Of a DNA stretch of 64,000 nucleotides, positions 8,833 to 64,000 are shown one piece after another (within the stretch, counting starts at the first letter, position 1; the number at the start of each line of letters is the position of its first letter). The notes under the pieces are model-generated. The model was given only the letters and a program-made list of their open reading frames with translations. It was not told the DNA's origin and did no database searches. The position numbers and the translations under genes are program-made. The stretch is from positions 1,218,501 to 1,282,500 of the forward strand of contig NZ_CP031243.1 in the NCBI RefSeq assembly GCF_003352385.1, in the 5' to 3' direction. This DNA comes from Haemophilus haemolyticus (lineage in GTDB: Bacteria; Pseudomonadota; Gammaproteobacteria; Enterobacterales; Pasteurellaceae).

Positions 8833-8933
8833 ATTGTTTATTTTTGATACGAAAAAGAGAAAATTTGCGTTATCTCAAATTTTTAAAGGAAAAATTCTTT
8901 TAAAATCCACCGCACTTTTTAAAGGAGAGAAAA

Positions 8934-9662
8934 ATGAGTAGCTTTTTTGTTGCGGGGACAGATACGAATGTGGGAAAAACCACGGCAACCCGCGCGATTA
9001 TTCAAGCCTTGCAAAAACAAGGTGTGCAAGTGGTTGGCTATAAACCCATTGCTTGTTGCGGTGAGGAAAGTATTTACCCTGCGATGCAAGAAGAAAATAC
9101 ATCAGATTATGATAATTTATCAAATTCAGATGTATTAACATTAATGGATTCTACCAAAGAAAATGTGTCCTACAAGGATATTAATAGTTATACATTTAGC
9201 CATAGCGCACCGATGCTGACACAAGATAGGACGCGTATTAAGTTAGATAAAATTAATCATGATTTAACTCGATTAAATCAAAATTATCAGTCTGTGGTGG
9301 TTGAGGGCTCGTTTGGTTTAATGACTCCAATGGCGGAAGGAAAAAGTTTTGCTGATTGGGTTGCTCAACGAAAAATGCCTGTGGTTCTTGTGGTTGGTAT
9401 TAAAGATGGTTGTGTGAATCACGCGTTGTTAACTGTGCAAGCGATTCAACAGCTAGGCGTTCCGTTATTGGGCTGGATAGCTAACCGTGTTAATCCATTA
9501 TTGAGCCATTATGCAGAAATTGTTGATTTGCTTGTTGAGCATATTGATGCGCCGCTTTTAGGTAAAATTCCTTATTTGCATAAACCAGAAGAGCAAGAAT
9601 TGGGACATTATTTGACGGATATTGATCGATTAATGTATATGCAAACAGAGTTAGTCAAATAA
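8934..9662 (+). CDS. bioD: ATP-dependent dethiobiotin synthetase
   Basis: Closes the ureido ring of dethiobiotin in biotin synthesis using CO2 and ATP. It is 242 residues. The P-loop GTDTNVGKTT sits at residues 8-17, GYKPIACCG follows, and VVEGSFGLMTP is the Mg/substrate loop (usually EGAGG; here EGSFG). Haemophilus carries two BioD-like proteins, and the altered loop suggests this is the paralogue away from the main bio cluster. AGGAGAG precedes the ATG. It ends at a bidirectional terminator shared with metF. Confidence 0.92.
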   Translation: MSSFFVAGTDTNVGKTTATRAIIQALQKQGVQVVGYKPIACCGEESIYPAMQEENTSDYDNLSNSDVLTLMDSTKENVSYKDINSYTFSHSAPMLTQDRTRIKLDKINHDLTRLNQNYQSVVVEGSFGLMTPMAEGKSFADWVAQRKMPVVLVVGIKDGCVNHALLTVQAIQQLGVPLLGWIANRVNPLLSHYAEIVDLLVEHIDAPLLGKIPYLHKPEEQELGHYLTDIDRLMYMQTELVK

Positions 9663-9692
9663 TAAAGTGCGGTTAAAGTTTTTTATATTTAG

Positions 9693-9720
9693 ATAAGGGC
9701 GTAAATAACGCCCTTATTTT
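9693..9720. terminator. Bidirectional terminator between bioD and metF
   Basis: ATAAGGGCG / CGCCCTTAT with a 7-base loop and TTTT on the plus side. It lies between two convergent genes and can serve both strands. Confidence 0.8.
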
Positions 9721-9737
9721 GTGGAAGAAAGTTTAAA

Positions 9738-11358
<1,621 letters not shown>

Positions 11359-11374
11359 TCACGAGGTTTAGAAA

Positions 11375-11767
11375 ATGGCAGAGAATCAAAACTACGGCAC
11401 AGGTCGCCGCAAAAGCTCTTCAGCTCGTGTATTTATCAAACCGGGCAGTGGTAAAATCACTATCAACCAACGTGAATTAGACGTTTACTTCGGCCGTGAA
11501 ACTGCGCGCATGGTAGTACGTCAACCATTAGAATTGGTTGAGTTAACTGATAAATTAGACCTATACATCACTGTTAAAGGTGGTGGTATTTCTGGTCAAG
11601 CGGGTGCAATCCGTCACGGTATCACTCGTGCATTGATGGAATACGATGAAACATTACGCCCAGCACTTCGTGCAGCTGGTTTCGTTACTCGTGACGCACG
11701 TCGCGTTGAACGTAAAAAAGTGGGTTTACACAAAGCACGTCGTCGTCCACAATACTCAAAACGTTAA
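11375..11767 (+). CDS. rpsI: Small ribosomal subunit protein uS9
   Basis: 30S subunit protein, 130 residues. The N-terminus has [13 protein letters not shown], the centre [15 protein letters not shown], and the basic tail [11 protein letters not shown] ends in Lys-Arg, which contacts the P-site tRNA. It is translated from the rplM mRNA; ACGAGG lies before its ATG. A strong terminator follows. Confidence 0.99.
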
Positions 11768-11791
11768 TTTTTATTTTCGTTTCGAAAAAGA

Positions 11792-11818
11792 AAAGCAGAG
11801 AGAAATCTCTGCTTTTTT
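11792..11818 (+). terminator. Terminator of rplM-rpsI
   Basis: AAAGCAGAGA, loop GAAA, TCTCTGCTTT, followed by further T residues. Confidence 0.92.
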
Positions 11819-11882
11819 GTTATCTAACTTATTGATTATAAAACAATAAAAAAGAATTATTTGGCAAATGACTTACGCTTTG

Positions 11883-11891
11883 TGGTAGAAT
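11883..11891 (+). promoter_or_regulatory. Extended -10 promoter of sspA-sspB
   Basis: TGG-TAGAAT forms an extended -10 about 50 bases before sspA. TTGGCA at 11861 is a possible -35 but at a 19-base spacing, so the extended -10 probably carries most of the strength. Confidence 0.55.
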
Positions 11892-11940
11892 ACACACCCC
11901 TTGTAAAATATAGAATATTTTTGGATCTTCGGAGGAATAA

Positions 11941-12579
11941 ATGTCCAGCGCATCAAGTAAACGTTCAGTAATGACTCTTTTTTCAAATAAAGATGATATT
12001 TACTGTCATCAGGTAAAAATTGTTTTAGCTGAAAAAGGTGTACTTTATGAGAACGAAGAAGTTGATTTGCAAGCATTACCAGAAGATTTAATGGAATTAA
12101 ATCCGTATGCTACAGTGCCTACGTTAGTTGATCGTGATCTTGCTTTGTTTAGTTCGCGAATTATTATGGAATATCTTGACGAGCGTTTTCCGCATCCACC
12201 ATTAATGCAAGTGTATCCAGTTTCTCGAGCAAAAGATCGTCTTTTGATGTTACGAATTGAACAAGATTGGTATCCAACTCTCAAGAAAGCAGAAAATGGT
12301 ACAGAAAGTGAAAAAGCTGAAGCGCTCAAACAATTAAAAGAAGAACTTTTAGCGATTACACCAGTTTTCCAGCAAACACCTTATTTCATGAATGAAGAGT
12401 TTGGTTTAGTGGACTGTTATGTTGCTCCATTGTTATGGAAATTAAAACATTTAGGCGTAGAATTTACAGGTCCAGGTAGTAAACCGATTAAGGGATATAT
12501 GGATCGTGTATTTAGTCGAGATTCATTCTTGCAGTCTGTAGGTGAGGCTGCACCAAAAAATTTAATGGATGATAAGTAA
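11941..12579 (+). CDS. sspA: Stringent starvation protein A
   Basis: RNA-polymerase-associated factor with a glutathione-transferase fold but no transferase activity; in E. coli it supports late phage gene transcription and acid tolerance. It is 212 residues. An N-terminal thioredoxin-like part runs from MTLFSNKDDIYCHQVKIVLAEKG to roughly residue 90, with NPYATVPTLVD (cis-Pro), and an all-helical GST-C part follows. GGAGG precedes the ATG. sspB follows, sharing one base (taATG). Confidence 0.96.
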   Translation: MSSASSKRSVMTLFSNKDDIYCHQVKIVLAEKGVLYENEEVDLQALPEDLMELNPYATVPTLVDRDLALFSSRIIMEYLDERFPHPPLMQVYPVSRAKDRLLMLRIEQDWYPTLKKAENGTESEKAEALKQLKEELLAITPVFQQTPYFMNEEFGLVDCYVAPLLWKLKHLGVEFTGPGSKPIKGYMDRVFSRDSFLQSVGEAAPKNLMDDK

Positions 12580-13031
12580 TGGAATACAAAGCTTCCCCTA
12601 AGCGCCCTTATTTATTACGCGCCTATTATGATTGGCTCGTAGATAATAGTTTTACGCCTTATTTAGTTGTTGATGCGACTTACTTAGGTGTGAATGTTCC
12701 TGTCGAATATGTAAAAGATGGGCAGATTGTATTGAACTTATCTGCCAATGCTACGGGTAATTTACAGCTTACAAATGATTTCATCCAGTTTAATGCCCGA
12801 TTTAAAGGTGTCTCTCGTGAACTGTATATTCCAATGGGCGCAGCGCTTGCGATCTATGCTCGTGAAAATGGTGATGGCGTGATGTTTGAGCCAGAAGAGG
12901 TTTACGATGAACTTAATTCTGAGCCAGATACTGAACAACCAACTGGTTTTCATGAGGCTGTAGATAGCCCTAGAAAACGAGAAGAAAAAAAGAAAACAAA
13001 ATCAGTTTCTCATTTAAGAATTGTTGATTAA
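12579..13031 (+). CDS. sspB: ClpXP adaptor SspB
   Basis: Binds ssrA-tagged proteins and delivers them to ClpXP. It is 150 residues. The N-terminal dimer and peptide-binding domain (about 1-110) includes RPYLLRAYYDWLVDN and ATGNLQL. A charged flexible linker leads to the ClpX-binding tail HLRIVD, equivalent to the LRVVK end of E. coli SspB. It is translationally coupled to sspA. Confidence 0.96.
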   Translation: MEYKASPKRPYLLRAYYDWLVDNSFTPYLVVDATYLGVNVPVEYVKDGQIVLNLSANATGNLQLTNDFIQFNARFKGVSRELYIPMGAALAIYARENGDGVMFEPEEVYDELNSEPDTEQPTGFHEAVDSPRKREEKKKTKSVSHLRIVD

Positions 13032-13036
13032 GAAAA

Positions 13037-13067
13037 AACGCGATGAAGTTATCATCGCGTTTATTTT
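13037..13067. terminator. Terminator between sspB and dxs
   Basis: AACGCGATGA / TCATCGCGTT stem with a 5-base loop, then TATTTTTA. It lies between convergent sspB and dxs. Confidence 0.85.
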
Positions 13068-14944
13068 TATAAATCACCTTGCTTTTCAATAAAGTGGAGA
13101 ATTTTTTCTTCAATTCCTTTTGAATCTAATCCCAAATCTTTTAATGCCTCTTGCTGTGTTGCTTGTGGAATAAAATAATCGGGCAAACCAAGCTGTAAAA
13201 GTGCGGTTGATTTTCCAGATGAATTTAGTACTTCAGCAACCGCAGATCCTGCTCCACCTTGAATTGCATTTTCTTCTAATGTGACTAAATAATCATGAGT
13301 TTGTGTAAGCACATTAATCATTTCAATATCAATCGGTTTCACAAAACGCATATCGACAACTGTTGCATTGAGTTTTTCTGCTGCCTCTAAAGCGGACGGT
13401 AAAAGGGTACCAAAATTTAAAATCGCAATTTTTTGACCTTCTCGAATTAAACGTGATTTACCGATAGGAAGCATTTCTAAAGGTGTTAGTTCAACACCAA
13501 TGGCATTTCCGCGAGGATAGCGCACTGCCGCTGGTTTTCCACATTGATAACCTGTATAGAGCATTTGACGGCATTCATTTTCATCACTTGGTGTCATGAT
13601 GATCATATTTGGAATACAACGCATAAAGCTGAGATCAAATGCTCCTTGGTGTGTTGGGCCATCAGCGCCTACGATACCCGCTCGATCAATCGCAAATAAT
13701 ACAGGCAGATTTTGAATGGCAACATCGTGAATCAATTGGTCGTAAGCACGTTGTAGAAATGTCGAGTAAATCGCGACTACAGGTTTATATCCGCCAATAG
13801 CAAGTCCAGTGGCAAACGTGACGGCGTGTTGTTCAGCAATCGCTACATCAAAATATTGTTCTGGGAAACGTTGAGAAAACTCCACCATGCCAGAACCTTC
13901 GCGCATTGCTGGTGTGATACCAATAATTTTGGAATCTTTTTCTGCCATTTCGCATAGCCAATCACCAAAAATTTTCGAATAAGTTGGCTTGGTATTGTGT
14001 TTAGGCAATTCACCACTGATTGGGTCAAATTTGGGTACGCCGTGGAAACCAATTGGATCTTTTTCTGCTGGAGCGTATCCTTTACCTTTTTTCGTTTTGA
14101 TATGTAAGAATTGTGGTCCCTTCAGATTACGCATATTCGTAAGTGTTGCCACTAATTCGTCAATATTATGCCCATCCACCGGGCCAATATAATTAAAACC
14201 GAGTTCTTCAAATAATGTACTTTCTGGCGAAAACATCACTCCTTTCATATGTTCTTCGGTTTTTTTCATAAAGTTTTTTACAGGTGGAACTTTATCGAGA
14301 ATTTTTTTACTTCCATCTCGTAATGTGGAGTAGATAGAACCAGAGAAAATACGAGCAAGGTGATTATTTAACGCGCCAACATTTTCTGAAATAGACATTT
14401 CATTGTCATTTAAAATGACCAACATATCAGTGTGAACGGAACCTGCGTGATTCAGCGCTTCAAAAGCCATTCCTGCAGTAATTGCACCGTCACCGATTAC
14501 GCATACCGTTTTTCTACCTGCATTTTCTCGTTCTGCGGCGACAGCAATACCTAATCCAGCACTAATAGAAGTAGAGGAGTGGCCAACGCTTAATACGTCA
14601 AATTCACTTTCTTCACGCCAAGGGAAAGGATGAATACCGTCTTTTTGGCGAATTGTGGACATTTTATCTCGACGACCCGTTAAAATTTTGTGGGGATAAG
14701 CTTGATGTCCAACATCCCAAATTAACTGATCAAATGGGGTTTTATACACGTAATGTAGTGCAACGGTTAGCTCTACGGTGCCTAAACCTGATGCTAAATG
14801 CCCGCTAGTTTGACTAACAGATTCTAAAAGATAACCGCGTAATTCTTGGCAGAGTTGTGGCAGCTGATCTTTATTTAAAAGACGCAAATCTTCTGGTGAA
14901 TTAATCAAAGATAATAAGGGGTAATTGTTCATATTGTTAGTCAT
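13067..14944 (-). CDS. dxs: 1-deoxy-D-xylulose-5-phosphate synthase
   Basis: Thiamine-diphosphate enzyme, first step of the non-mevalonate isoprenoid pathway. It is 625 residues. The ThDP/Mg motif runs from [14 protein letters not shown] to NDNEMS near residues 150-180, and the transketolase central region holds [16 protein letters not shown] second Met at residue 5 could also be the start. It lies downstream of ispA in the xseB-ispA-dxs order typical of gammaproteobacteria, with a 54-base gap containing uptake sequences. Confidence 0.97.
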
Positions 14945-14998
14945 TTTAAAAACGTTATAATTTTTGACCGCACTTTGTGAGCATTGATGCGGTCGGTA

Positions 14999-15889
14999 TT
15001 AACTTTTTCTAGTAATAATGAATTCAGCTAATGCACGAAGTGCGGTCGTATCAAAAGGAATTTTTTCTAATTCAGACAAAGCACTTTGATATAGGTCTTG
15101 CGCTTTTTGTTTTGCGCCGCTTAACCCAAGTAATTTGGGATATGTACTTTTATCTAAATCAAGATCGGCGCCGACTTGTTTGCCAATTTCTGCGCTATCA
15201 CCCTCAATATCTAAAATATCGTCTTGAACTTGAAAGGCTAAGCCAATGGCTTCCGCATATTGTGTTAAGGATTGTTCTAACGTTTTGTCGGCAAAATGCG
15301 GAGAACAAATAAAACCTAATTTTAATGCAGCAATCAGCAATGCGCCCGTTTTGTTACGATGGATTAATTCTAATTCGCTTAAACTAATTTGTTTATGCTC
15401 AGAAATAAGATCTAAACTTTGCCCTAAACACATTCCTTGTACGCCAGCGCCTTGCGCTAAAATTTGAACTAAAGCCAGTTTTTGTTCAGAAGAAATATTT
15501 GGCGTTTTAGTTAACATTTCAAAAGCAAAACTTTGAAGGGCATCGCCCGCAAGAATAGCCGTAGCTTCATCAAATTGGATGTGACAAGTAGGATGCCCAC
15601 GACGCAAATTGTCATTATCCATTGCTGGTAAATCATCGTGAATTAAGGAATATGCATGAATGGCTTCAATAGCGGCAGCGGCGTAATCTAAGGTTTGTTT
15701 CTCTGCGCCAAGCATTTGACCTGTTGCGTAAACTAAGAAAGGTCTAACCCGTTTACCACCAAGTAATAATGCGTATTTCATCGCGTCAAGCAAAGGTGCA
15801 TTATGACTTTCAATGCCCTCAAATTGAGCTTCTAAAAAGCGATTAATACGATTTTGAACCTGTTGTAATTCTTCAGAAAAGTGACCCAT
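14999..15889 (-). CDS. ispA: Farnesyl diphosphate synthase
   Basis: Builds farnesyl diphosphate from IPP and DMAPP for undecaprenyl phosphate and quinones. It is 296 residues. The first Asp-rich motif DDLPAMDND and the second DDILDIEGD flank the catalytic core; LLGGKRVRPFL is the diphosphate-binding stretch. Its start codon overlaps the xseB stop, so translation is coupled; dxs of the same pathway follows. Confidence 0.97.
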   Translation of the reverse strand: MGHFSEELQQVQNRINRFLEAQFEGIESHNAPLLDAMKYALLLGGKRVRPFLVYATGQMLGAEKQTLDYAAAAIEAIHAYSLIHDDLPAMDNDNLRRGHPTCHIQFDEATAILAGDALQSFAFEMLTKTPNISSEQKLALVQILAQGAGVQGMCLGQSLDLISEHKQISLSELELIHRNKTGALLIAALKLGFICSPHFADKTLEQSLTQYAEAIGLAFQVQDDILDIEGDSAEIGKQVGADLDLDKSTYPKLLGLSGAKQKAQDLYQSALSELEKIPFDTTALRALAEFIITRKS

Positions 15890-56156: not shown

Positions 56157-56183
56157 AATGCTGGAATTTTCCAGCATTTTTTT
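56157..56183 (+). terminator. Terminator of the NlpC gene; left edge of the accessory island
   Basis: AATGCTGGAA, a two-base centre, TTCCAGCATT and a run of T. The core operon structure ends here. Confidence 0.88.
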
Positions 56184-56214
56184 ATCATGATTTTTTTCAA
56201 ATTTGGGAGATAAA

Positions 56215-57168
56215 ATGTCCTCAAACTTAACCGCACTTCAAATTCAACTTGAAATTTTACGCCTTATTCCAAAAACACGTTTTATCACTGCAGAAGAAAT
56301 CTTACAAAAACTTGCTGATATTGGCGTTCAACGTGATATTCGTTCAATCCAACGCCAGCTAGAAAGCTTATCTCAACAGTTTGAAATTGAACGTGATATG
56401 CGTGATAAACCTTATGGCTACCGATGGAAATCAAATGCTAAAGGCTTGGATTTACCGATTCTAAATGAACAGCAATCACTTGTGCTTATGCTTGCTAAAC
56501 AATATCTCAATGGCATTTTGCCTTCTAGTATTATGAGCTCAATGGAGGCGTTCTTTCAACAGGCCGAATATAATTTGGTTTATGACAGCCATAAAAAATC
56601 AGGGGCAGAATGGCTTAATAAAGTTGCTATTGCGCCAACTAGTCAGCCGTTATTACCTGCCAAAATCAATCCAGAAATTTTTTCTCAAATTAGTACCGCA
56701 CTTTATCAAAATCGATTTTTACAGGTGCATTATCGGAGTATTCACGGTAAAGAACATAAGGCACAGGTCAAGCCATTGGCTTTGGTACAACAAGGGCCAA
56801 GTAGCTATTTAGTCGCACAATATGAGAATGGCGATATTTTACACTTGGCTTTGCATCGTTTGCTTAAGGTAACAGTGAGTACAATGATATTTGAACGCCC
56901 TAATTTCAATTTGAAATCTTATGTAGAAAGCCAAAAGTTTGGTTTTACCTATGGTCGAAAAATTCGATTAACTTTCCGCATTAATAAAGATATTGGTGGA
57001 TTTTTAACAGAAACACCACTATCAACAGATCAAACAGTAAAAGATTCTGGGGATGATTATGAAATTTCAGCAACGGTGATCGAAAGTCAAATGCTGGAGT
57101 GGTGGATAGCTCACTTTGGTGAATATTATCAAGAAATTGAGCGTGTATATTTAGAAGAAACAGTATAA
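56215..57168 (+). CDS. WYL-domain transcriptional regulator
   Basis: 317 residues from ATG 56215, behind GGGAGA. An N-terminal winged HTH (about 5-75: LQIQLEILRLIP, TAEEILQKL, RSIQRQLESL) is followed by a WYL domain (about 130-210), in which HYRSIHGKEHKAQVKPLAL and SSYLVAQYENG are the core strands, and a WCX-like C-terminal domain. It belongs to the type that controls defence loci (BrxR, CapW). Its last codon overlaps a palindrome that recurs at two other promoters of the island, which suggests a local regulon. The ligand is unknown. Confidence 0.92.
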   Translation: MSSNLTALQIQLEILRLIPKTRFITAEEILQKLADIGVQRDIRSIQRQLESLSQQFEIERDMRDKPYGYRWKSNAKGLDLPILNEQQSLVLMLAKQYLNGILPSSIMSSMEAFFQQAEYNLVYDSHKKSGAEWLNKVAIAPTSQPLLPAKINPEIFSQISTALYQNRFLQVHYRSIHGKEHKAQVKPLALVQQGPSSYLVAQYENGDILHLALHRLLKVTVSTMIFERPNFNLKSYVESQKFGFTYGRKIRLTFRINKDIGGFLTETPLSTDQTVKDSGDDYEISATVIESQMLEWWIAHFGEYYQEIERVYLEETV

Positions 57169-57199
57169 CGACATAAATTGTCGCTTTGCGCTTTATGAT
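57169..57199 (+). promoter_or_regulatory. Operator 1 and promoter of the nucleotidase-sirtuin unit
   Basis: Perfect palindrome CGACA-TAAAT-TGTCG at 57169-57183; it overlaps the end of the WYL gene. Ten bases later is a -10-like TATGAT (57194-57199), 27 bases before the next ATG. The same spacing occurs at 58886 and 61307. Confidence 0.75.
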
Positions 57200-57226
57200 A
57201 AATCTATCTGAAGAGAGGACATTCAA

Positions 57227-58117
57227 ATGAAACAGATTGTGTACATTGATATGGATAATGTGATGGTAGATTTTCCATCAGGTATTGCAAAACTAGATGA
57301 TAAAACCAAGCGAGAATATGAAGGTCGATATGATGAAGTCGAGGGCATTTTTAGCTTAATGGAACCAATGCCAAACGCGATTTCTGCCGTTCATAAATTG
57401 ATGAAGAAATATCATATTTATGTGCTTTCTACTGCGCCTTGGCATAATCCTTCCGCTTGGAGTGATAAAGTAAAATGGATTCAACATTATTTCGGTGAAG
57501 AAAAAGGTTCAGCCTTATACAAACGATTGATTTTATCCCATCATAAAAATCTTAACCAAGGCGATTATTTAATTGATGATCGCACTAAAAATGGTGATGG
57601 CAAATTTCAAGGCGAACATGTTCATTTTGGTACAGAACAGTTTGCTAATTGGAATTGTGTATTATCTTACTTAGGCTGCGGGACTTTTACACCAAGTGAT
57701 ATTTTGCAAGATTGTTTGAAGAAGCCAGCCGCCCTTGTGCAAGTTGAAAATGAGGAGCAAAGCCGAGTCATTGGTGCTTTTGCAGATCGCTATAAATGGC
57801 AAGTGTTTAATTTGGCATGTGTTTATGCGGATGAAACAACAACCGAACAGAAAACTGTCTATTTAATTATCAGCCCTTATCACAGTGATGAATTTAAATT
57901 GCGTATTGATGCCATGTGCGCTCATATTCAAGCGGAATATGAAGTGTTATTACGCTCAAAATCACAGCTAAAGCAATATTTCCAACGCCTTTCAGATAAG
58001 CCATTCTTGCACATTGAAACCTATACTTATCAACCGCTTTATAAAGCAGGGAATATATTTGGCATGATGGCGAGAGATAGACAGATTGATGAAATTTTAG
58101 GACAAAAAGGAGCCTGA
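57227..58117 (+). CDS. 5'(3')-deoxyribonucleotidase-like HAD protein with extra C-terminal domain
   Basis: 296 residues. About 1-165 are an NT5C-type HAD domain: VYIDMDNVMVDF with nucleophile Asp8 and Asp10, VLSTAPWHNPSAW, and LIDDRTKNGDG with the metal-binding Asp pair. Residues 166-296 are a separate region I do not recognise. The relatives dephosphorylate deoxynucleoside monophosphates. GAGAGGA precedes the ATG; the sirtuin gene begins three bases after its stop codon. dNMP removal would suit an anti-phage role, but that is inference. Confidence 0.82.
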   Translation: MKQIVYIDMDNVMVDFPSGIAKLDDKTKREYEGRYDEVEGIFSLMEPMPNAISAVHKLMKKYHIYVLSTAPWHNPSAWSDKVKWIQHYFGEEKGSALYKRLILSHHKNLNQGDYLIDDRTKNGDGKFQGEHVHFGTEQFANWNCVLSYLGCGTFTPSDILQDCLKKPAALVQVENEEQSRVIGAFADRYKWQVFNLACVYADETTTEQKTVYLIISPYHSDEFKLRIDAMCAHIQAEYEVLLRSKSQLKQYFQRLSDKPFLHIETYTYQPLYKAGNIFGMMARDRQIDEILGQKGA

Positions 58118-58120
58118 AAA

Positions 58121-58831
58121 ATGATTTTGGAAAAGAAACCAATTTGCGTAGTATTAACCGGTGCTGGCATTAGTGCTGAAAGTGGTATTCCTACTTTTAG
58201 AGCTGAAGATGGATTGTGGGCAGGGCATAAAATAGAAGAAGTTTGTACGCCCGAAGCCTTAAAGAAAAACCGTGCAAAAGTATTAGAGTTTTATAATGAA
58301 CGACGTCGTAATGCTCAAGCTGCAGAGACTAATGCAGCACACTTGGCTTTAGTTGAACTGGAAGAATTTTATGAAGTTCATATAATCACTCAAAATGTGG
58401 ATGATTTACATGAGAGAGCGGGAAGTACTAACGTACTCCATTTACATGGAGAATTGAATAAAGCTCGCAGCAGTTTTAATACCGATTACATTGTTCCATG
58501 TTTGGGTGATCAACTACTAGAGGATAAGGATAATCACGGTCATCCAATGCGTCCACATATAGTCTTTTTTGGGGAAAATGTACCCATGTTTCCTAAAGCA
58601 GAAAAGTTAGTGAAAAAGGCAGATATTGTGATTGTTATTGGCACTTCATTACAAGTTTATCCAGCTAATGAATTGGTAAATCTAGCTCCATACGGTTCAC
58701 TTATCTATTTGATCGATCCTAATCCCAATACAGGATTTGTTCGTAAGCAAGTTATCGCAATAAAAGAAAAAGCGGGTGAGGGCGTTCCGAAAGTGGTCGC
58801 TGAGTTATTGGAGAACGTTAAAAACACATAG
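58121..58831 (+). CDS. Sirtuin (NAD-dependent deacylase-like), zinc ribbon lost
   Basis: 236 residues with a full Rossmann sirtuin core: GAGISAESGIPTFRAEDGLW, TQNVDDLHERAG, catalytic His in HLHGELNK, and VIGTSLQVYPA. FYNERRR keeps the Tyr and Arg that in class III enzymes (CobB, SIRT5) bind acidic acyl groups. The small domain between HGEL and RPHIVFFGE has only one Cys, so the usual four-cysteine zinc ribbon is absent. It forms a two-gene unit with the nucleotidase. It could act as deacylase or as NAD hydrolase; sequence does not decide. Confidence 0.9.
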   Translation: MILEKKPICVVLTGAGISAESGIPTFRAEDGLWAGHKIEEVCTPEALKKNRAKVLEFYNERRRNAQAAETNAAHLALVELEEFYEVHIITQNVDDLHERAGSTNVLHLHGELNKARSSFNTDYIVPCLGDQLLEDKDNHGHPMRPHIVFFGENVPMFPKAEKLVKKADIVIVIGTSLQVYPANELVNLAPYGSLIYLIDPNPNTGFVRKQVIAIKEKAGEGVPKVVAELLENVKNT

Positions 58832-58885
58832 AAAAATGACCGCACTTTTTAAACAAATAGCGACTTTTATGTTGTTATTTTTTAA

Positions 58886-58917
58886 CGACACGAATTGTTG
58901 CTATGCTGTGCTATTTT
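58886..58917 (+). promoter_or_regulatory. Operator 2 and promoter of the OGFr-like unit
   Basis: CGACA-CGAAT-TGTTG at 58886-58900, one mismatch from perfect symmetry. AACGACA and GCT flanks match operators 1 and 3. A -10-like CTATTT or TATTTT starts 10-11 bases after it, 27-28 bases before the ATG. Confidence 0.65.
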
Positions 58918-58943
58918 ATTGTTTATGAATTAACGAGAAATGT

Positions 58944-59441
58944 ATGCACCCCGTAATTGAATTTTATTTAGAGCAAAGAAAAAACCAATATAATTTATCT
59001 TTGCAAGATGTTTGGGCGATGCCCAAAAGAATGATTGGCGATGCTTATTTTTATATTCCTTGGCTTTTACCTGTTACTGAAAGTTCCAAATGGAATCGTT
59101 CAGTACCGGTTTTTAACGAAGAAGATCTAGCTATTTTTATTGGAGATGAAGTAATTCAAAATAAATATTTACATTCTATTGATATTATTCTGGATTACTT
59201 CTGTTTATATCGTGAAGATAATAAAATATTCCCAAAAACAGAATTGAGTGAACGTAAAGTTTGGCTACGTAATATCGGGCATGAAAGTAAGAAGATTTCC
59301 CGCATCATTCGTAGTTTAAATTATTGCGGTCATCCTGAGTTGGCTAAAAGTTTACAGCAACTGGCAATAAAATTAGGTCAAGAAAAAGGCGGAATTCAAG
59401 AAGAAACAATGGAAATTTGGGCAAATCTACTTAAACAATAA
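58944..59441 (+). CDS. OGFr-like domain protein
   Basis: 165 residues, soluble and largely helical. The stretch around residues 35-62 (FYIPWLLPVTESSKWNRSVP then VFNEEDLAIF) resembles the conserved region of opioid-growth-factor-receptor-like proteins, where I-x-W-L-F/L-P-x-x-E-x-S and a later E-D-I-x-x-F recur. The function of bacterial members is unknown. It is followed by the UDG-like gene after 7 bases. Confidence 0.65.
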   Translation: MHPVIEFYLEQRKNQYNLSLQDVWAMPKRMIGDAYFYIPWLLPVTESSKWNRSVPVFNEEDLAIFIGDEVIQNKYLHSIDIILDYFCLYREDNKIFPKTELSERKVWLRNIGHESKKISRIIRSLNYCGHPELAKSLQQLAIKLGQEKGGIQEETMEIWANLLKQ

Positions 59442-59448
59442 GGATAAA

Positions 59449-60168
59449 ATGATGGTAACAGAAGATTTTAAAAAAGTGGCAGTATCCTTCGCTGGAGGAG
59501 ATGGCGGAAATCCTAACTCAGATGTTTGGTTTTGTGGGTTAGAATGGGGGATTGGTGATGAAGCTTCTCCTGATGATTTTTATAAGAAATTTAGTTTAAG
59601 CCCTAAATTAATACCGCACTCTTGGTTAGAGGACGATTTTGATGGTAGTTGGACTACGCAATATAATCAAAAATTATGTTGGTTTTTGTGGTATTACTAT
59701 AATTTAGATTGGAAAAGTGGTGAAAGCTATGAGTATTTTGTTAGTACTTATAATGTGCTTTATCCACAGGGTATTGGTTTTAAACTAAATATGTTACCAA
59801 TCAATTTCAAAAATAGAGCATCAATTCAATGGAATGAACAATTCATTAAGATGACAGGATTTGAAACATTCGATGAATATAGAGAATGGTGTGTTGAAAA
59901 TCGTGGTGCTTTTTATCGTCAACTTATAGATGAATGTAATCCTAAAGTGATTATTTGTACGGGAGTCACAGAAAAAGATAACTTCTTTAAGTTTTTTACT
60001 GGAGAAGCCGTATATGAAACTAAAGCGTTGAAAGAATTTAATATCTTCTATCGCAAGTACAATGATACTTTAATTTGTGTTTGCCCATTTTTTGGTGGCC
60101 CAAGTGGCATTAATTCTTACGACAAAATGGAAGCATTAGTAGAGTCAGTAAAAGAATTATGTAAATAA
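59449..60168 (+). CDS. Unrecognised protein, possibly of uracil-DNA-glycosylase fold
   Basis: 239 residues from one of two adjacent ATGs (59449 or 59452). VWFCGLEWGIG near residue 25 and PKVIICTGVTEKDNFFKFF near 165 resemble the first and last strand-loops of UDG-superfamily proteins, and LNMLPINFKN could be the middle motif. The catalytic residues of known UDGs are not clearly present, so a glycosylase activity is not claimed. It is co-transcribed with the OGFr-like gene. Confidence 0.5.
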   Translation: MMVTEDFKKVAVSFAGGDGGNPNSDVWFCGLEWGIGDEASPDDFYKKFSLSPKLIPHSWLEDDFDGSWTTQYNQKLCWFLWYYYNLDWKSGESYEYFVSTYNVLYPQGIGFKLNMLPINFKNRASIQWNEQFIKMTGFETFDEYREWCVENRGAFYRQLIDECNPKVIICTGVTEKDNFFKFFTGEAVYETKALKEFNIFYRKYNDTLICVCPFFGGPSGINSYDKMEALVESVKELCK

Positions 60169-60188
60169 TTTTTTTATTAAGTTTATCA

Positions 60189-61190
60189 TTACTTATCTTG
60201 CTTATATTTAAGCATGTGCATAATAAGCCTAATAAGCGTTTCTTTTTGTTTCGGATCAGATTCTGCAACTAATAAAGTGAGCGCTGCAAGCCCCGTATCA
60301 TTGATAACTGGATGCCCATTATGATCAAACAAACGCCCATTTCTATGTAAGAAATCCACAAATAAAAATGCACCGCTACGTTTATTACCATCTGAAAAAG
60401 GATGGTTCTTGACGACAAAATAAAGTAAATGCGCCGCTTTTGCTTCGATGCTTGGATAAGCAGGTTCACCAAATACACTTTGATCTAAATTACCTAGAAT
60501 CGCAGATAAGCCTTTATCTCGTTCACGTCCAAACAGATCACTTGCTTCACCTTTTTCCATTAGCTGTAATTTTAACTCTGCTAGTGCAGAACAAGCCTCT
60601 GCATAAGTCGGTAATGTACCGCCTTGCTGTGTTTGTGGTTCGGTAAGTAAACCTTCATCATATTGTTGTAGCCATAAAAACGTATGTGTATAACGGCTGA
60701 CAATATCCACTAATCCACGACCACTTTCTAGCGTTAATTCCGATGAATTTGCCGTTTTTTGAATAAGCGCAAGTGCTTGTTCTAATTCGTGAGCATTTTG
60801 CTGTAAACGTTTTTGGTTAATAGTATAGCCTTGAGTCAGATATTCTTTTAAACGTGCAGTTGCCCAACGGCGGAAACTAATGCCTTGTTTAGATTTTACT
60901 CTATAACCAACAGAGATAATCATATCTAAATCATAATGCTCAATTTCACGATTGACTTGGCGTTTACCTTCTTGGCGAACTATCCGGAATTTCCGGATAG
61001 TTGATTCTTTCTCAAGTTCTTCATCATCAAATATATTGGTAATGTGCTCATTGATGGTGCGAATATCTTTATCAAATAACATGGCCATCTGCGCTTGGGA
61101 AAGCCAAACGGTGTCATTTTCAAATCTCACTTCCACTTGCGTTGTGCCATCTTGAGCTTGGTAAATTTCAATCGGGTTTTGGTTATTCAT
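60189..61190 (-). CDS. RhuM-Fic fusion protein
   Basis: 333 residues from ATG 61190, which has AAGGAAAA 8 bases before it; a longer in-frame start is less likely. About 1-130 are a RhuM-type DNA-binding-like domain (VWLSQAQMAMLFDKDIRTI, EGKRQVNREIEHYDLDMIISVGYRV). About 215-320 are a Fic/Doc domain with HPFSDGNKRSGAFLF, complete for AMP/NMP transfer (H-x-F-x-x-G-N-K/G-R). Fic proteins modify targets from nucleotide cofactors. It is divergent from the FtsK-gamma unit. Confidence 0.9.
   Translation of the reverse strand: MNNQNPIEIYQAQDGTTQVEVRFENDTVWLSQAQMAMLFDKDIRTINEHITNIFDDEELEKESTIRKFRIVRQEGKRQVNREIEHYDLDMIISVGYRVKSKQGISFRRWATARLKEYLTQGYTINQKRLQQNAHELEQALALIQKTANSSELTLESGRGLVDIVSRYTHTFLWLQQYDEGLLTEPQTQQGGTLPTYAEACSALAELKLQLMEKGEASDLFGRERDKGLSAILGNLDQSVFGEPAYPSIEAKAAHLLYFVVKNHPFSDGNKRSGAFLFVDFLHRNGRLFDHNGHPVINDTGLAALTLLVAESDPKQKETLIRLIMHMLKYKQDK
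60978..61002. repeat. 25-base palindrome inside the RhuM-Fic gene
   Basis: AACTATCCGGAA, a single central T, TTCCGGATAGTT. It lies within coding sequence for the conserved S-T-I-R-K-F-R-I-V part, so it may reflect codon choice, a binding site or an mRNA hairpin. Confidence 0.7.
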
Positions 61191-61306
61191 ATTATTTTCC
61201 TTAATAATTTGCATGTATATATAACCAGATAAATATGCATATTGCAATACAGATAATCTTATTTGCAAAAAATCTTCTAAAAATAACCACTTTCAATATT
61301 CTCAAA

Positions 61307-61337
61307 CGACACAAGTTGTCGCTTCCTTTCATATAAT
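61307..61337 (+). promoter_or_regulatory. Operator 3 and promoter of the FtsK-gamma unit
   Basis: Perfect palindrome CGACA-CAAGT-TGTCG at 61307-61321, then exactly 10 bases and a consensus TATAAT at 61332-61337. It lies in the divergent gap with RhuM-Fic and could affect both directions. The transcript leader would be about 65 bases. Confidence 0.78.
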
Positions 61338-61407
61338 TTTTCCATAAAGGGAGATTTTTTACTTCTTACATATCTATCAAGCCTTTAATTAATAAAAGGA
61401 GCAAATA

Positions 61408-61608
61408 ATGGCAATGAAAGTAATTATGGCAAGAGATCCACTTTTTGAGGATGTAAAAAAATTTGTGCAACAACAAAAAGTTGCATCTTGTTCGATGATT
61501 CAACGCAGATTTATGTTAGGTTTTAATCGAGCTGGACAAATTTTAGAACAGTTGGAACAAGCGGGTATTATTTCATCAATGAAAAATGGACAGAGAAAAG
61601 TATTATGA
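61408..61608 (+). CDS. Standalone FtsK gamma-domain protein
   Basis: 66 residues, all of which match the winged-helix gamma domain at the C-terminus of FtsK: ARDPLFEDVKKFV, S-M-I-Q-R-R-F-x-x-G-F-N-R-A, ILEQLEQAGIIS. In FtsK this domain reads the polar KOPS motif and activates XerD. Here no translocase motor is attached. GGAG precedes the start (ATG 61408; ATG 61414 also possible). Its stop overlaps the next ATG (ATGA). Confidence 0.88.
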   Translation: MAMKVIMARDPLFEDVKKFVQQQKVASCSMIQRRFMLGFNRAGQILEQLEQAGIISSMKNGQRKVL

Positions 61609-62450
61609 AAAATGATTTGAATTATGCAGTGGAGCTTATTCGCAAAGCGGATGGTATTTTAATTACAGCTGGTGCGGGTATGAGCGTGGATTCTGGGTTG
61701 CCCGATTTTCGCAGCGTTGGCGGATTTTGGAATGCTTATCCTATGTTTAAAGAACATAATATATCTTTTGAAGACATCGTGACGCCACTAGCTTATAAGC
61801 ATAATCAGGAACTTGCCTATTGGTTTTATGGACATCGATTAGTTCAATACCGAAATACTCTTCCTCACGAAGGGTATCAGATTTTAAAACGCTGGGCGGG
61901 AGATAAACCTCATGGATATTTTGTTTTTACCAGTAATGTTGATGGGCATTTTCAAAAGGCTGGTTTTGATGATAGCCATGTTTATGAAGTACACGGTACT
62001 TTGGAGCGTCTTCAGTGTGTCAATAATTGTCGAGGATTAAGTTGGTCTGCATCAAGTTTTCAACCTGTCGTGGATAATGAAAACTTATGTTTAACCAGTG
62101 AAAAACCACATTGTCCTTATTGTGGGGGCTTTGCTCGTCAAAATGTACTAATGTTTAATGATTGGAGTTATGCAAGTCAATATCAGGATTTTAAAAAAGT
62201 GCGGTTAGAATCGTGGTTAAAAGAAGTGCAAAATCTCGTCGTCATTGAACTGGGAGCGGGGAAAGCCATTCCAACTGTGCGTCGCTTTTCTGAACGTACG
62301 GCGAAAGCAAAAAAAGGGGGATTTATCCGTATTAACCCACAAGATGCAGGCGTGCCGAAAATGCACTTTTTAAGTCTAGAAATGAAGGCGTTAGATGCGC
62401 TAAAAGCGATTGATTGTCTTCTAAATCCTTCTCAACAAGCGGTTGAATAA
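61605..62450 (+). CDS. Sirtuin-family protein with Cys4 zinc site
   Basis: 281 residues, divergent from the other sirtuin. The core motifs are GAGMSVDSGLPDFRSVGGFW, TSNVDGHFQKAG, EVHGTLE and, near 210, VVIELGAGKAIPTVR in place of the usual G-T-S. A zinc ribbon is kept: C-x4-C (VNNC) and CPYC. It is coupled to the FtsK-gamma gene before it and to the PP2C gene after it, each overlapping by a few bases. NAD-dependent deacylation, ADP-ribosylation or NAD hydrolysis are all possible. Confidence 0.88.
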   Translation: MKNDLNYAVELIRKADGILITAGAGMSVDSGLPDFRSVGGFWNAYPMFKEHNISFEDIVTPLAYKHNQELAYWFYGHRLVQYRNTLPHEGYQILKRWAGDKPHGYFVFTSNVDGHFQKAGFDDSHVYEVHGTLERLQCVNNCRGLSWSASSFQPVVDNENLCLTSEKPHCPYCGGFARQNVLMFNDWSYASQYQDFKKVRLESWLKEVQNLVVIELGAGKAIPTVRRFSERTAKAKKGGFIRINPQDAGVPKMHFLSLEMKALDALKAIDCLLNPSQQAVE

Positions 62451-63202
62451 TGGAAAATTTTTGCGAAATTACCTTTTGCCAACAAATTGGCAGCAACAAG
62501 CGACACAACCAAGATGCCCTTTTTAATGGCGAGACTGTGTTTCAATATAAACTCAAAACGGCTGAAAAACGCCTTGAAACCCGACCGCACTTTATTGTGG
62601 GCGTGGCAGATGGTATTTCCAATAGCAATCGACCTGAAAAAGCGAGCAAGTTGGCAATGCAATTACTAAGCCAAATGGAAAGCATAAACCGTCAAACGAT
62701 CTACGATTTACAACCCAGTTTATCAGCAGAATTGGCAGAGGATTATTTTGGCTCAGCAACCACGTTTGTGGCAGCTGAGATTGACCAAATAACTCGTAAA
62801 GCCAAAATTCTCAGCGTAGGCGATAGCCGTGCTTATTTAATTGATGCTCAGGGTAAATGGCAACAGATTACCCAAGATCATTCTATTCTTTCTGAATTGT
62901 TGGCTGATTTTCCCGATAAAAAAGAAGAAGATTTTGCCACGATTTATGGCGGCGTTTCTTCTTGTTTAGTCGCCGATTATTCCGAATTCCAAGATAAAAT
63001 TTTTTATCAAGAAATTGAAATTCAACAAGGGGAAAGTTTATTACTGTGTTCTGATGGATTAACAGATGGACTTTCTGCTGAAGTAAGAGAAAAGATTTGG
63101 AAACAATATGATAATGATAAATCAAGATTGACGGTGTGTCGTAAATTAATTGCGAGACAAGGGTTTTATGATGATTTATCGGTTATAATTTGTATGTTTT
63201 GA
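62450..63202 (+). CDS. PP2C-family serine/threonine phosphatase
   Basis: 250 residues. Metal-site motifs are complete: RHNQDA, VADGIS, GDSRAYL, CSDGLTDG and DDLSVI. No membrane or sensor domain is attached, so it is a soluble catalytic unit. Its ATG overlaps the stop of the sirtuin gene (taATG), so it is translated with it. No kinase gene is visible beside it within the window. Confidence 0.92.
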   Translation: MENFCEITFCQQIGSNKRHNQDALFNGETVFQYKLKTAEKRLETRPHFIVGVADGISNSNRPEKASKLAMQLLSQMESINRQTIYDLQPSLSAELAEDYFGSATTFVAAEIDQITRKAKILSVGDSRAYLIDAQGKWQQITQDHSILSELLADFPDKKEEDFATIYGGVSSCLVADYSEFQDKIFYQEIEIQQGESLLLCSDGLTDGLSAEVREKIWKQYDNDKSRLTVCRKLIARQGFYDDLSVIICMF

Positions 63203-63239
63203 TTTATGTTTAGAAATATTCTAAGGAACCTTAATTATT

Positions 63240-64000
63240 ATGAGCGAAGAAAAAGCAAAAATACTCAAGATTGATGATGTATTAAAATTAAATTTGAGTA
63301 TTCCAGATTATCAAAGACCATATAAATGGACAATAAAGCACGTTCAACAATTACTTGATGATTTACTGACGCATTTCCGTAATCAACAACAAGTTTATCG
63401 AATTGGAACAGTGGTAATACATAAATATAATGAAGAAAACAAAGAAACTAAAAAAATTGAAGAAAAGTTAGATATTGTTGATGGTCAGCAACGTTTAATT
63501 ACGCTTTCATTATTACTTTATTATTTGAATAATGAAAAAAATTCACGGATAAGGCTTTATTAGATGAGAGTGTAGCACATACTCTTAGCAAGAGTAATAT
63601 AATTAATAATTATAATTTTATTAAAAATTATTCTATTTCCCATAAGGAAGAATTTAAAAACTATATTTTAGAAACTTGTGAGATGGTTTATGTTGAATTA
63701 GATGATTTAGACGAAGCCTTCCAATTTTTTGACTCGCAAAATTCAAAAGGGAAGCCTTTAGAGTCTTATGATTTGCTTAAAGCGTATCATTTAAGAGAAA
63801 TGAATGATAAACCCAAAGAGATTATTCATCATTGTGTTGAACGTTGGGAGAAATCTGCACTTTCTCAAGAAATCAATAATTTAGATAAAATTATCAACTA
63901 TATTCTTTTTAGATTACGCCGATGGCACTATCAAGAAAGCGGAGAGGTTTTTACATCGGACGAGCTAGAGACATTTAAAGGCGTATCAGAAAGTACTAAC
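63240..64000 (+). pseudogene. DUF262 (GmrS/ParB-like) protein, frameshifted and cut by window end
   Basis: DUF262 proteins are NTP-dependent nuclease or restriction components. The first 107 codons have SIPDYQRPYKW and the hallmark DGQQRLITLSLLLYYL, then stop at 63563. The other frame continues without a stop from 63542 to the window end with FFDSQNSKGKPLESYDLLKAY, another family motif. The break is at an A7 run (63535-63541); eight A would fuse both parts. So it is a mutant, a slippage switch or a sequencing error. It starts 38 bases after the PP2C gene. Confidence 0.82.

Follow-up and report, generated by a model that had tools for sequence, protein, structure and literature searches.

A WYL-headed modular cassette with a double AAA ATPase, two sirtuins and an exchangeable nuclease in Haemophilus haemolyticus and other Pasteurellaceae: a candidate conflict locus

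At the end of the 64,000-nucleotide stretch analyzed here (hereafter the window; positions 1,218,501-1,282,500 of the single 1,973,061-base contig of Haemophilus haemolyticus, NZ_CP031243.1), a gene cassette was identified which is opened by a WYL-domain regulator and closed by a two-domain Cdc48-like AAA ATPase. Two sirtuins and a PP2C-type phosphatase lie between them, and an exchangeable nuclease is located next to the AAA gene. With a rough probability of 0.55, the locus is a WYL-controlled modular conflict cassette, most likely directed against phages or plasmids, in which an AAA motor and a swappable nuclease are combined with a protein-modification module based on nicotinamide adenine dinucleotide (NAD) or ADP-ribose. 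Its action is probably anti-phage. The features are listed below in window coordinates, the last one in those of the stretch L006, which holds the same cassette.

About 56161..56187, plus strand: hairpin terminator of the NlpC gene, forming the cassette boundary (read from the sequence only, no program score)
56215..57168, plus strand: WYL-domain regulator, first gene (Pfam WYL 1.8e-11; start context; in 46 of 140 Pasteurellaceae genomes)
57227..58117, plus strand: HAD nucleotidase of the NT5C type; an additional C-terminal domain starts at about residue 150 (Pfam NT5C 9.4e-12)
58121..58831, plus strand: Sir2A, a zinc-less CobB/SIRT5-type sirtuin (Pfam SIR2 3.3e-42)
58944..59441, plus strand: OGFr_N-like protein (Pfam OGFr_N 1.4e-7)
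59449..60168, plus strand: protein with a UDG-superfamily fold (AlphaFold2 (AF2) model with Foldseek TDG/MUG matches)
60189..61268, minus strand: RhuM-Fic protein (Pfam RhuM 8e-28, Fic 1.3e-12; PADLOC PDC-S23 2.7e-148)
61408..61608, plus strand: stand-alone FtsK-gamma winged-helix domain, head of a second gene run (Pfam FtsK_gamma 1.2e-20)
61605..62450, plus strand: Sir2B, a Cys4 sirtuin (Pfam SIR2 3.8e-20; in 34 of 140 genomes)
62450..63202, plus strand: phosphatase of the PP2C type, at the left border of the exchangeable slot (Pfam PP2C_2 4.8e-7; in 37 of 140 genomes)
63240..63563, plus strand: first DUF262 (GmrSD_N) gene, first open reading frame (ORF) of an interrupted gene (Pfam GmrSD_N 1.2e-21)
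63683..64000, plus strand: second ORF of the interrupted DUF262 gene, running past the window end (ORF reading)
L006:9088-13227, beyond the window: second DUF262 gene and double AAA ATPase (genome sequence, Pfam)

The ten accessory genes which the initial annotation had placed in the window are all present, nine of them backed by Pfam and the UDG-like gene recognized from its structure model. The domain assignments of that annotation stood, whereas the start of the WYL gene, the strand (minus) and start of the RhuM-Fic gene, the intactness of DUF262 and the end of the cassette had to be corrected. By its sequence context, the WYL gene most likely starts at the ATG at 56215 behind GGGAG rather than at the TTG at 56203 that gives the longest ORF, and the relatives of the RhuM-Fic protein begin 26 residues later, suggesting a start near 61190. 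The cassette extends about 4.7 kb beyond the window, to the window-equivalent position 68726, and there comprises the remainder of the broken DUF262 gene, a DUF262/GmrSD_C gene (669 aa) and a gene whose 685-aa product has two AAA domains; genes for an SSS transporter, a sulfatase, galM, infC and rplT (named by eye) follow on its 3′ side. The second DUF262 gene encodes a GmrSD-type protein with both domains (GmrSD_N 9.4e-35, GmrSD_C 4.3e-14), and the first one shows GmrSD_N and DUF7834 only. The best solved relative of the AAA protein is a VCP-like ATPase (E 9.3e-38), which together with the two AAA stretches marks it as a double AAA protein of the Cdc48/p97-like kind.

The segment between the PP2C and AAA genes is an exchangeable nuclease slot. 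It contains two DUF262 genes in the present genome as well as in G006, G114, and G079, a PDDEXK_4-type nuclease in G003, G108, and G109, another DUF262 protein in G110 and G115, a GmrSD_N/GmrSD_C protein in G111 and an Mrr_cat-type protein in G004 and G116 (the Pfam checks of nuclease types were run on representatives only). G025, a more distant genome, has McrB and McrC between PP2C and AAA, plus an NT5C gene on the opposite strand. In a blastn comparison with the present cassette, all eight relatives carrying a different type of nuclease lost homology on the left side at L006 7682-7708, no more than about 25 bases from the PP2C stop (7703). In G003, G110, and G115 the homology returned at 11090-11092, where the nuclease ends, and in G004, G108, G109, G111, and G116 at 11616, inside the AAA gene. 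The PP2C protein is 91-97% identical to the present one in ten relatives and 76% identical in G079. Of 30 loci, 17 have a nuclease on the same strand immediately 5′ of the AAA gene, or 15 if the two judged by eye are disregarded; among the types counted as nucleases, GIY-YIG and NOV_C were assigned in part by eye.

The interior genes of the cassette cross genera, and the WYL gene mostly does not. The five full copies of the genus share 94-99% WYL identity with one another, and the identity to the six from genus g59 is 75-76% or 66-67%. The AAA proteins, in comparison, are 96% (G000-G114) and 97% (G004-G116) identical across genera, but only 76% within one genus (G000-G004). Natural transformation is a likely route of this transfer; 6 uptake motifs were counted in the 12.5 kb cassette and 41 in the other 56.2 kb of the window.

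The initial annotation had held that the genes would be a mere collection of unrelated cargo if they were never found together elsewhere and showed no shared expression or phage phenotype. Joint occurrence beside WYL genes was, however, seen in many genera of the Pasteurellaceae and at several chromosomal positions, and also in genomes outside the family. Among the 140 Pasteurellaceae genomes, WYL was found in 46, PP2C in 37, Sir2B in 34 and AAA in 31. WYL is present in all 31 genomes with AAA (hypergeometric p 4.5e-20), in 32 of the 34 with Sir2B (p 2.7e-18) and in 32 of the 37 with PP2C (p 1.4e-15), p values which treat related genomes as independent although they are not. PP2C lies within 5 kb of Sir2B in 32 of 39 places, spanning 31 genomes, and the same pairing occurs in two genomes without WYL (G151, G159).

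At the locus level, 33 loci with an AAA sequence contained WYL in 33 cases, a sirtuin in 30, a nuclease in 29 (27 without two assigned by eye) and PP2C in 25, followed by RhuM-Fic (20), NT5C (18), FtsK-gamma (16), OGFr (13) and UDG (8). The reference proteins for these counts came partly from the same loci, and contig ends depress the neighbour counts. G001 and G023 are included on partial matches and stand outside the 31 AAA genomes, the compared locus of G009 is stop-ridden, and in G082 a WYL piece lies at a contig edge, with the locus outside the fetched stretches. Twelve WYL loci without AAA contained a sirtuin in six cases and a nuclease in four. The usual core thus consists of WYL, AAA, nuclease and sirtuin, with NT5C, OGFr, UDG-like, RhuM-Fic, and FtsK-gamma being optional. 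The initial view of the genes as one set holds for their recurring association, but not for one fixed system, as these five gene types come and go. In a different arrangement (L106 of G162, 8861-15800), WYL stands beside three opposite-strand DUF262-type genes, one of them encoding 1199 aa, with no AAA or sirtuin gene in the stretch.

Related arrangements were also found beyond the family. In the genome contig scan, a Neisseria metagenome-assembled genome (MAG) carried WYL and AAA together with a pair of DUF262 genes, and a Brachymonas MAG carried WYL with AAA (as two ORFs). Seven of 15 plasmid AAA records were examined. WYL was located within two genes of AAA in four of them (Sphaerotilus, Rhodoferax, Pantoea, and Leisingera) and about 4 kb away in Methylomonas. 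The Sphaerotilus plasmid carries BREX-2 genes followed after 2.2 kb by WYL, AAA, Sir2, a MavL-type ADP-ribosylhydrolase (PF24754, 3.9e-121) and a DSP phosphatase, with DUF262 further on, and the order on the Leisingera plasmid is AAA, WYL, a DSP phosphatase-ADP-ribosylglycohydrolase fusion, PD-(D/E)XK and UvrD. Among 37 AAA loci outside the family, WYL was found in the stretch in ten, two of them weak (21-22 bits), and a sirtuin in four; L185, L186, L187, and L189 were left out because the ORF caller had missed their AAA genes. The 20 control stretches contained no WYL and one sirtuin, the latter in L221, which shares its contig with the test locus L179 (Fisher p 0.010 for WYL near AAA). In the four plasmid Sir2B records examined (of 12 found), no AAA of the cassette type was located beside Sir2B; the Thiodictyon plasmid, which carries a Sir2B relative, has WYL and Fic genes 6-10 kb away.

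In the genus itself, a near-full cassette occupies the same chromosomal slot in G006 and G004, and a copy split by a prophage is found there in G003, whereas other genes follow NlpC in G002. In other genera, the cassette occupies several different chromosomal sites. Prophages inside the cassette were seen in two species, G003 (L021/L050) and G115 (L115/L116/L051), one of them interrupting Sir2B and the other the nuclease gene. In ten scanned proteins, PHROGs gave transposition, terminase, portal and tail proteins, indicating a transposable and probably Mu-like type.

Several observations weigh against the reading as a functional conflict cassette. The copies in G001 and G007 at the same slot are reduced, that in G009 has stops in WYL, NT5C, Sir2B, PP2C, and AAA, G005 shows an empty site with NlpC 147 bases from SSS, and in G008 both the cassette and the SSS gene are absent. 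In the present genome, the first DUF262 gene is broken into two ORFs (107 and 305 aa), where G006 and G114 have a single undivided one (456-459 aa). Another gene lies directly 5′ of AAA in 13 of the 30 loci, and AAA identity is not coupled to the nuclease type (p 0.25 for the whole AAA, p 0.15 for residues 35-150), which counts against a tight one-to-one recognition. Outside the family, WYL is missing from the stretch in 27 of the 37 AAA loci, the p value weakens to 0.041 when the eight stronger WYL matches are used, and two of the seven plasmids (Diaphorobacter and Pseudomonas luteola) show no WYL. Furthermore, no ADP-ribosylglycohydrolase or macrodomain family was matched by Pfam in the 12 cassette genes.

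These points lend some weight to a hot spot of independent defence or selfish genes, in which WYL and AAA would merely be two residents: the contents are mosaic, alleles move separately, with AAA not co-varying with the nuclease, and many copies are decayed. This account is nevertheless unlikely, as AAA always occurs with WYL in 31 genomes and at several sites, the FtsK-gamma, Sir2B and PP2C genes overlap or abut, the close Sir2B-PP2C linkage persists in the two genomes lacking WYL, and the WYL-AAA(-sirtuin) combination recurs in other classes.

A second alternative is a host counter to virus-driven ADP-ribosylation, with the locus as a sirtuin/AAA branch of the predicted ADP-ribosylglycohydrolase (ARG)-centred systems. 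The AAA protein would extract modified proteins, hydrolases and phosphatases would clean them, and the nuclease would act as a second line. Section 3.8 of PMC9503650 predicts such ADP-ribosylation-countering systems with WYL/ADP-ribose components, HAD nucleotidases and restriction endonucleases (REases), to which WYL, the HAD nucleotidase and the REases of the cassette fit; their variable parts (WYL/Nudix regulator, HAD-type phosphatase, REase) correspond to the WYL, NT5C and GmrSD domains. ADP-ribosylhydrolases beside WYL-AAA on two plasmids, and an ADP-ribosylglycohydrolase adjoining the AAA relative in L204, point in the same direction. However, no such hydrolase is encoded by the 12 cassette genes, the 50 Pasteurellaceae loci gave a single fair match to the ARG probe (24% identity, L062 ORF 19) besides marginal MavL matches, and section 3.8 of PMC9503650 selected systems without a coupled sirtuin or ADP-ribosyltransferase. 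This alternative is regarded as quite doubtful. The cassette was not assigned to the ARG-centred systems as such, given the lack of PF03747 in its 12 genes and the presence of two sirtuins. A reading of DUF4804 as an ADP-ribosyltransferase proved wrong, since Pfam and PMC10951314 give a MavL-type ADP-ribosylhydrolase, an activity which that paper ascribes to MavL-type enzymes.

The two sirtuins look, from their sequences, like protein-acting deacylase-type enzymes. Sir2A aligns nearly over its full length with bacterial deacylases, and its nearest solved relatives are of the CobB/SIRT5 type. It retains the Tyr-x-x-Arg stretch (FYNERRR vs. FYNARRR), which we take to be the acyl-binding motif of class III (CobB/SIRT5) sirtuins, and the catalytic His (LHLHGEL vs. 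IHMHGEL). As initially annotated, it is zinc-less: the zinc Cys positions of CobB-like relatives are missing in five of 12 aligned sequences, Sir2A included, and kept in seven. Sir2B was correctly described as a Cys4 sirtuin, with Cys138/142/170/173 and also His130 invariant in 13 aligned rows. Its nearest solved relatives are SIRT5 and SirTM-type sirtuins; its profile aligned with 5a3a over positions 6-260 of 278, and the best match was 8rsn, both of which are presumably SirTM-type entries. In class M sirtuins (SirTM) the catalytic His is replaced, whereas Sir2B retains H130 where 8rsn has Gln and thus does not show this hallmark.

Abortive infection by infection-triggered NADase sirtuins, with the other genes assisting, is very improbable: the two sirtuins do share the cassette with defence-type nucleases, and NADase sirtuins are known from other defence systems, but neither sirtuin matched a PADLOC family at E 0.001, Pfam found no additional domain in them, the alignment of Sir2A with bacterial deacylases covers nearly its whole length and includes FYNxRRR, and Sir2B retains the catalytic His and the zinc cysteines. 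Within the initial annotation, which had proposed a nucleotide/NAD-centred defence, the weakest element is NAD depletion; the defence side of that proposal is supported by the defence-type nucleases and by the distant WYL-AAA-sirtuin trio 2.2 kb from BREX-2 on a plasmid.

For the WYL protein, no helix-turn-helix family was found in Pfam, and phmmer gave no solved-structure relative at E 0.01. The NT5C nucleotidase carries a C-terminal domain (window about 57674-58117) which appears from its distribution to be a mobile domain, as NT5C relatives without it exist. The same domain was also seen behind a different N-terminal part (L059:9441-10199 and L060:4737-5972), which resembles GIY-YIG by eye and gave no Pfam match. 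A fold search with the domain gave no convincing match, with none at E 0.001 and CutA-like shapes from E 0.05 (mean pLDDT of the whole model 68). For the N-terminal half (window 57230-57674), the identity to genes from Vibrio phages of the KVP40 type is about 60%, and 12 of 69 phage records matched it at 60-80%.

The product of 59449..60168 had neither a Pfam match nor a sequence match in the PDB. Its AF2 model (mean pLDDT 87) gave UDG-superfamily structures as top Foldseek matches, with TDG first (E 3.9e-5), and because of these matches the predicted UDG-superfamily fold holds, with the enzyme activity being putative only. The stand-alone FtsK-gamma protein is 50% identical to the gamma domain of the host FtsK, and a look by eye upstream of 61408 showed no obvious FtsK-gamma binding site. 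FtsK-gamma is fused to leucine-rich repeats (LRR) in L066 (12050-12805) and adjoins an LRR-like ORF in L058 (1-1430), and the cassette in L048 carries an LRR protein (13586-15220); these LRR parts are possibly a recognition part.

Further genes were noted near distant relatives of the AAA and Sir2B proteins. An FtsZ/tubulin-like gene (Pfam Tubulin 1.2e-23) adjoins AAA on the Rhodoferax plasmid (L166:7715-8824), and a gene annotated as ftsZ adjoins the Sir2B relative on the Thiodictyon plasmid (L171:8814-9905). TM0106-type RecB-like nuclease genes are located near the AAA relative on the P. luteola plasmid (L170) and, on a Caballeronia plasmid (L174), near a Sir2B relative and a 5′-nucleotidase. 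In other genomes of the same taxonomic order, a distant double-AAA branch stands beside integrase-type genes, in L138 and L140 (Pfam Phage_integrase) and in L144 (by eye), and is perhaps cargo of integrative elements.

As far as the literature searches show, the gene combination is new, and its nearest described relatives are the ARG-centred systems; full-text searches with a few sets of terms, mostly giving listings, found no open-access paper describing the cassette. It shares with the ARG-centred systems a WYL regulator, a HAD 5′-nucleotidase, restriction-endonuclease-fold effectors, a chaperone-like partner and a conserved core with variable modules. It differs from them by lacking an ADP-ribosylglycohydrolase and by having two sirtuins, a PP2C and a double AAA, which are unlisted in section 3.8; AAA+ and PP2C are also missing from the main text (PMC9503650). 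WYL proteins are known as regulators of defence loci from the BrxR family (PMC9122601) and from CapW (PMC9122588). Like these loci, the cassette is mosaic and is headed by a WYL regulator, with type IV restriction genes, but it holds no BREX or CBASS genes; no PglZ or other BREX core family was found by Pfam in the 12 genes, and no BREX model was among the PADLOC matches listed. The second DUF262 gene, with GmrSD_N and GmrSD_C, resembles GmrSD type IV restriction enzymes, for which cleavage of modified DNA is putative here. Unlike in plain GmrSD systems, DUF262 fills an exchangeable slot beside AAA within a larger cassette. The AAA protein has two AAA domains like the Cdc48/p97-type ATPases, but is bacterial, has a different N-terminal region and is linked to nucleases and WYL.

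In a functional conflict cassette of this kind, the WYL protein would hold expression low and release it on a nucleotide-type signal. The AAA protein would serve as the motor, either remodelling a target or permitting the nuclease to act, and the nuclease would cleave invading or host DNA. Acyl, ADP-ribosyl or phosphoryl marks may be added or removed by the sirtuins, PP2C and the HAD nucleotidase, or these enzymes may dispose of the nucleotides that arise, and both AAA and nuclease would be guided by the marks. RhuM-Fic would form a toxin-like unit of its own, and FtsK-gamma would provide further regulation at the locus, next to that by WYL. Whether this amounts to a new type of immunity, in which a Cdc48-like motor with an exchangeable nuclease is targeted by reversible marks under sirtuin/PP2C control and switched by a ligand-sensing WYL protein, is a tentative suggestion, and such a type is rather unlikely on the present evidence.

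WYL, the double AAA, a sirtuin, PP2C and one nuclease form a candidate core for a cassette which is spread through the Pasteurellaceae. Its nuclease slot represents a natural swap, with unrelated nucleases between near-identical flanks. Should the nuclease indeed be under the control of the AAA protein and the protein-modifying enzymes, bacterial DNA restriction would be linked to a segregase-type motor and to reversible marks on proteins.

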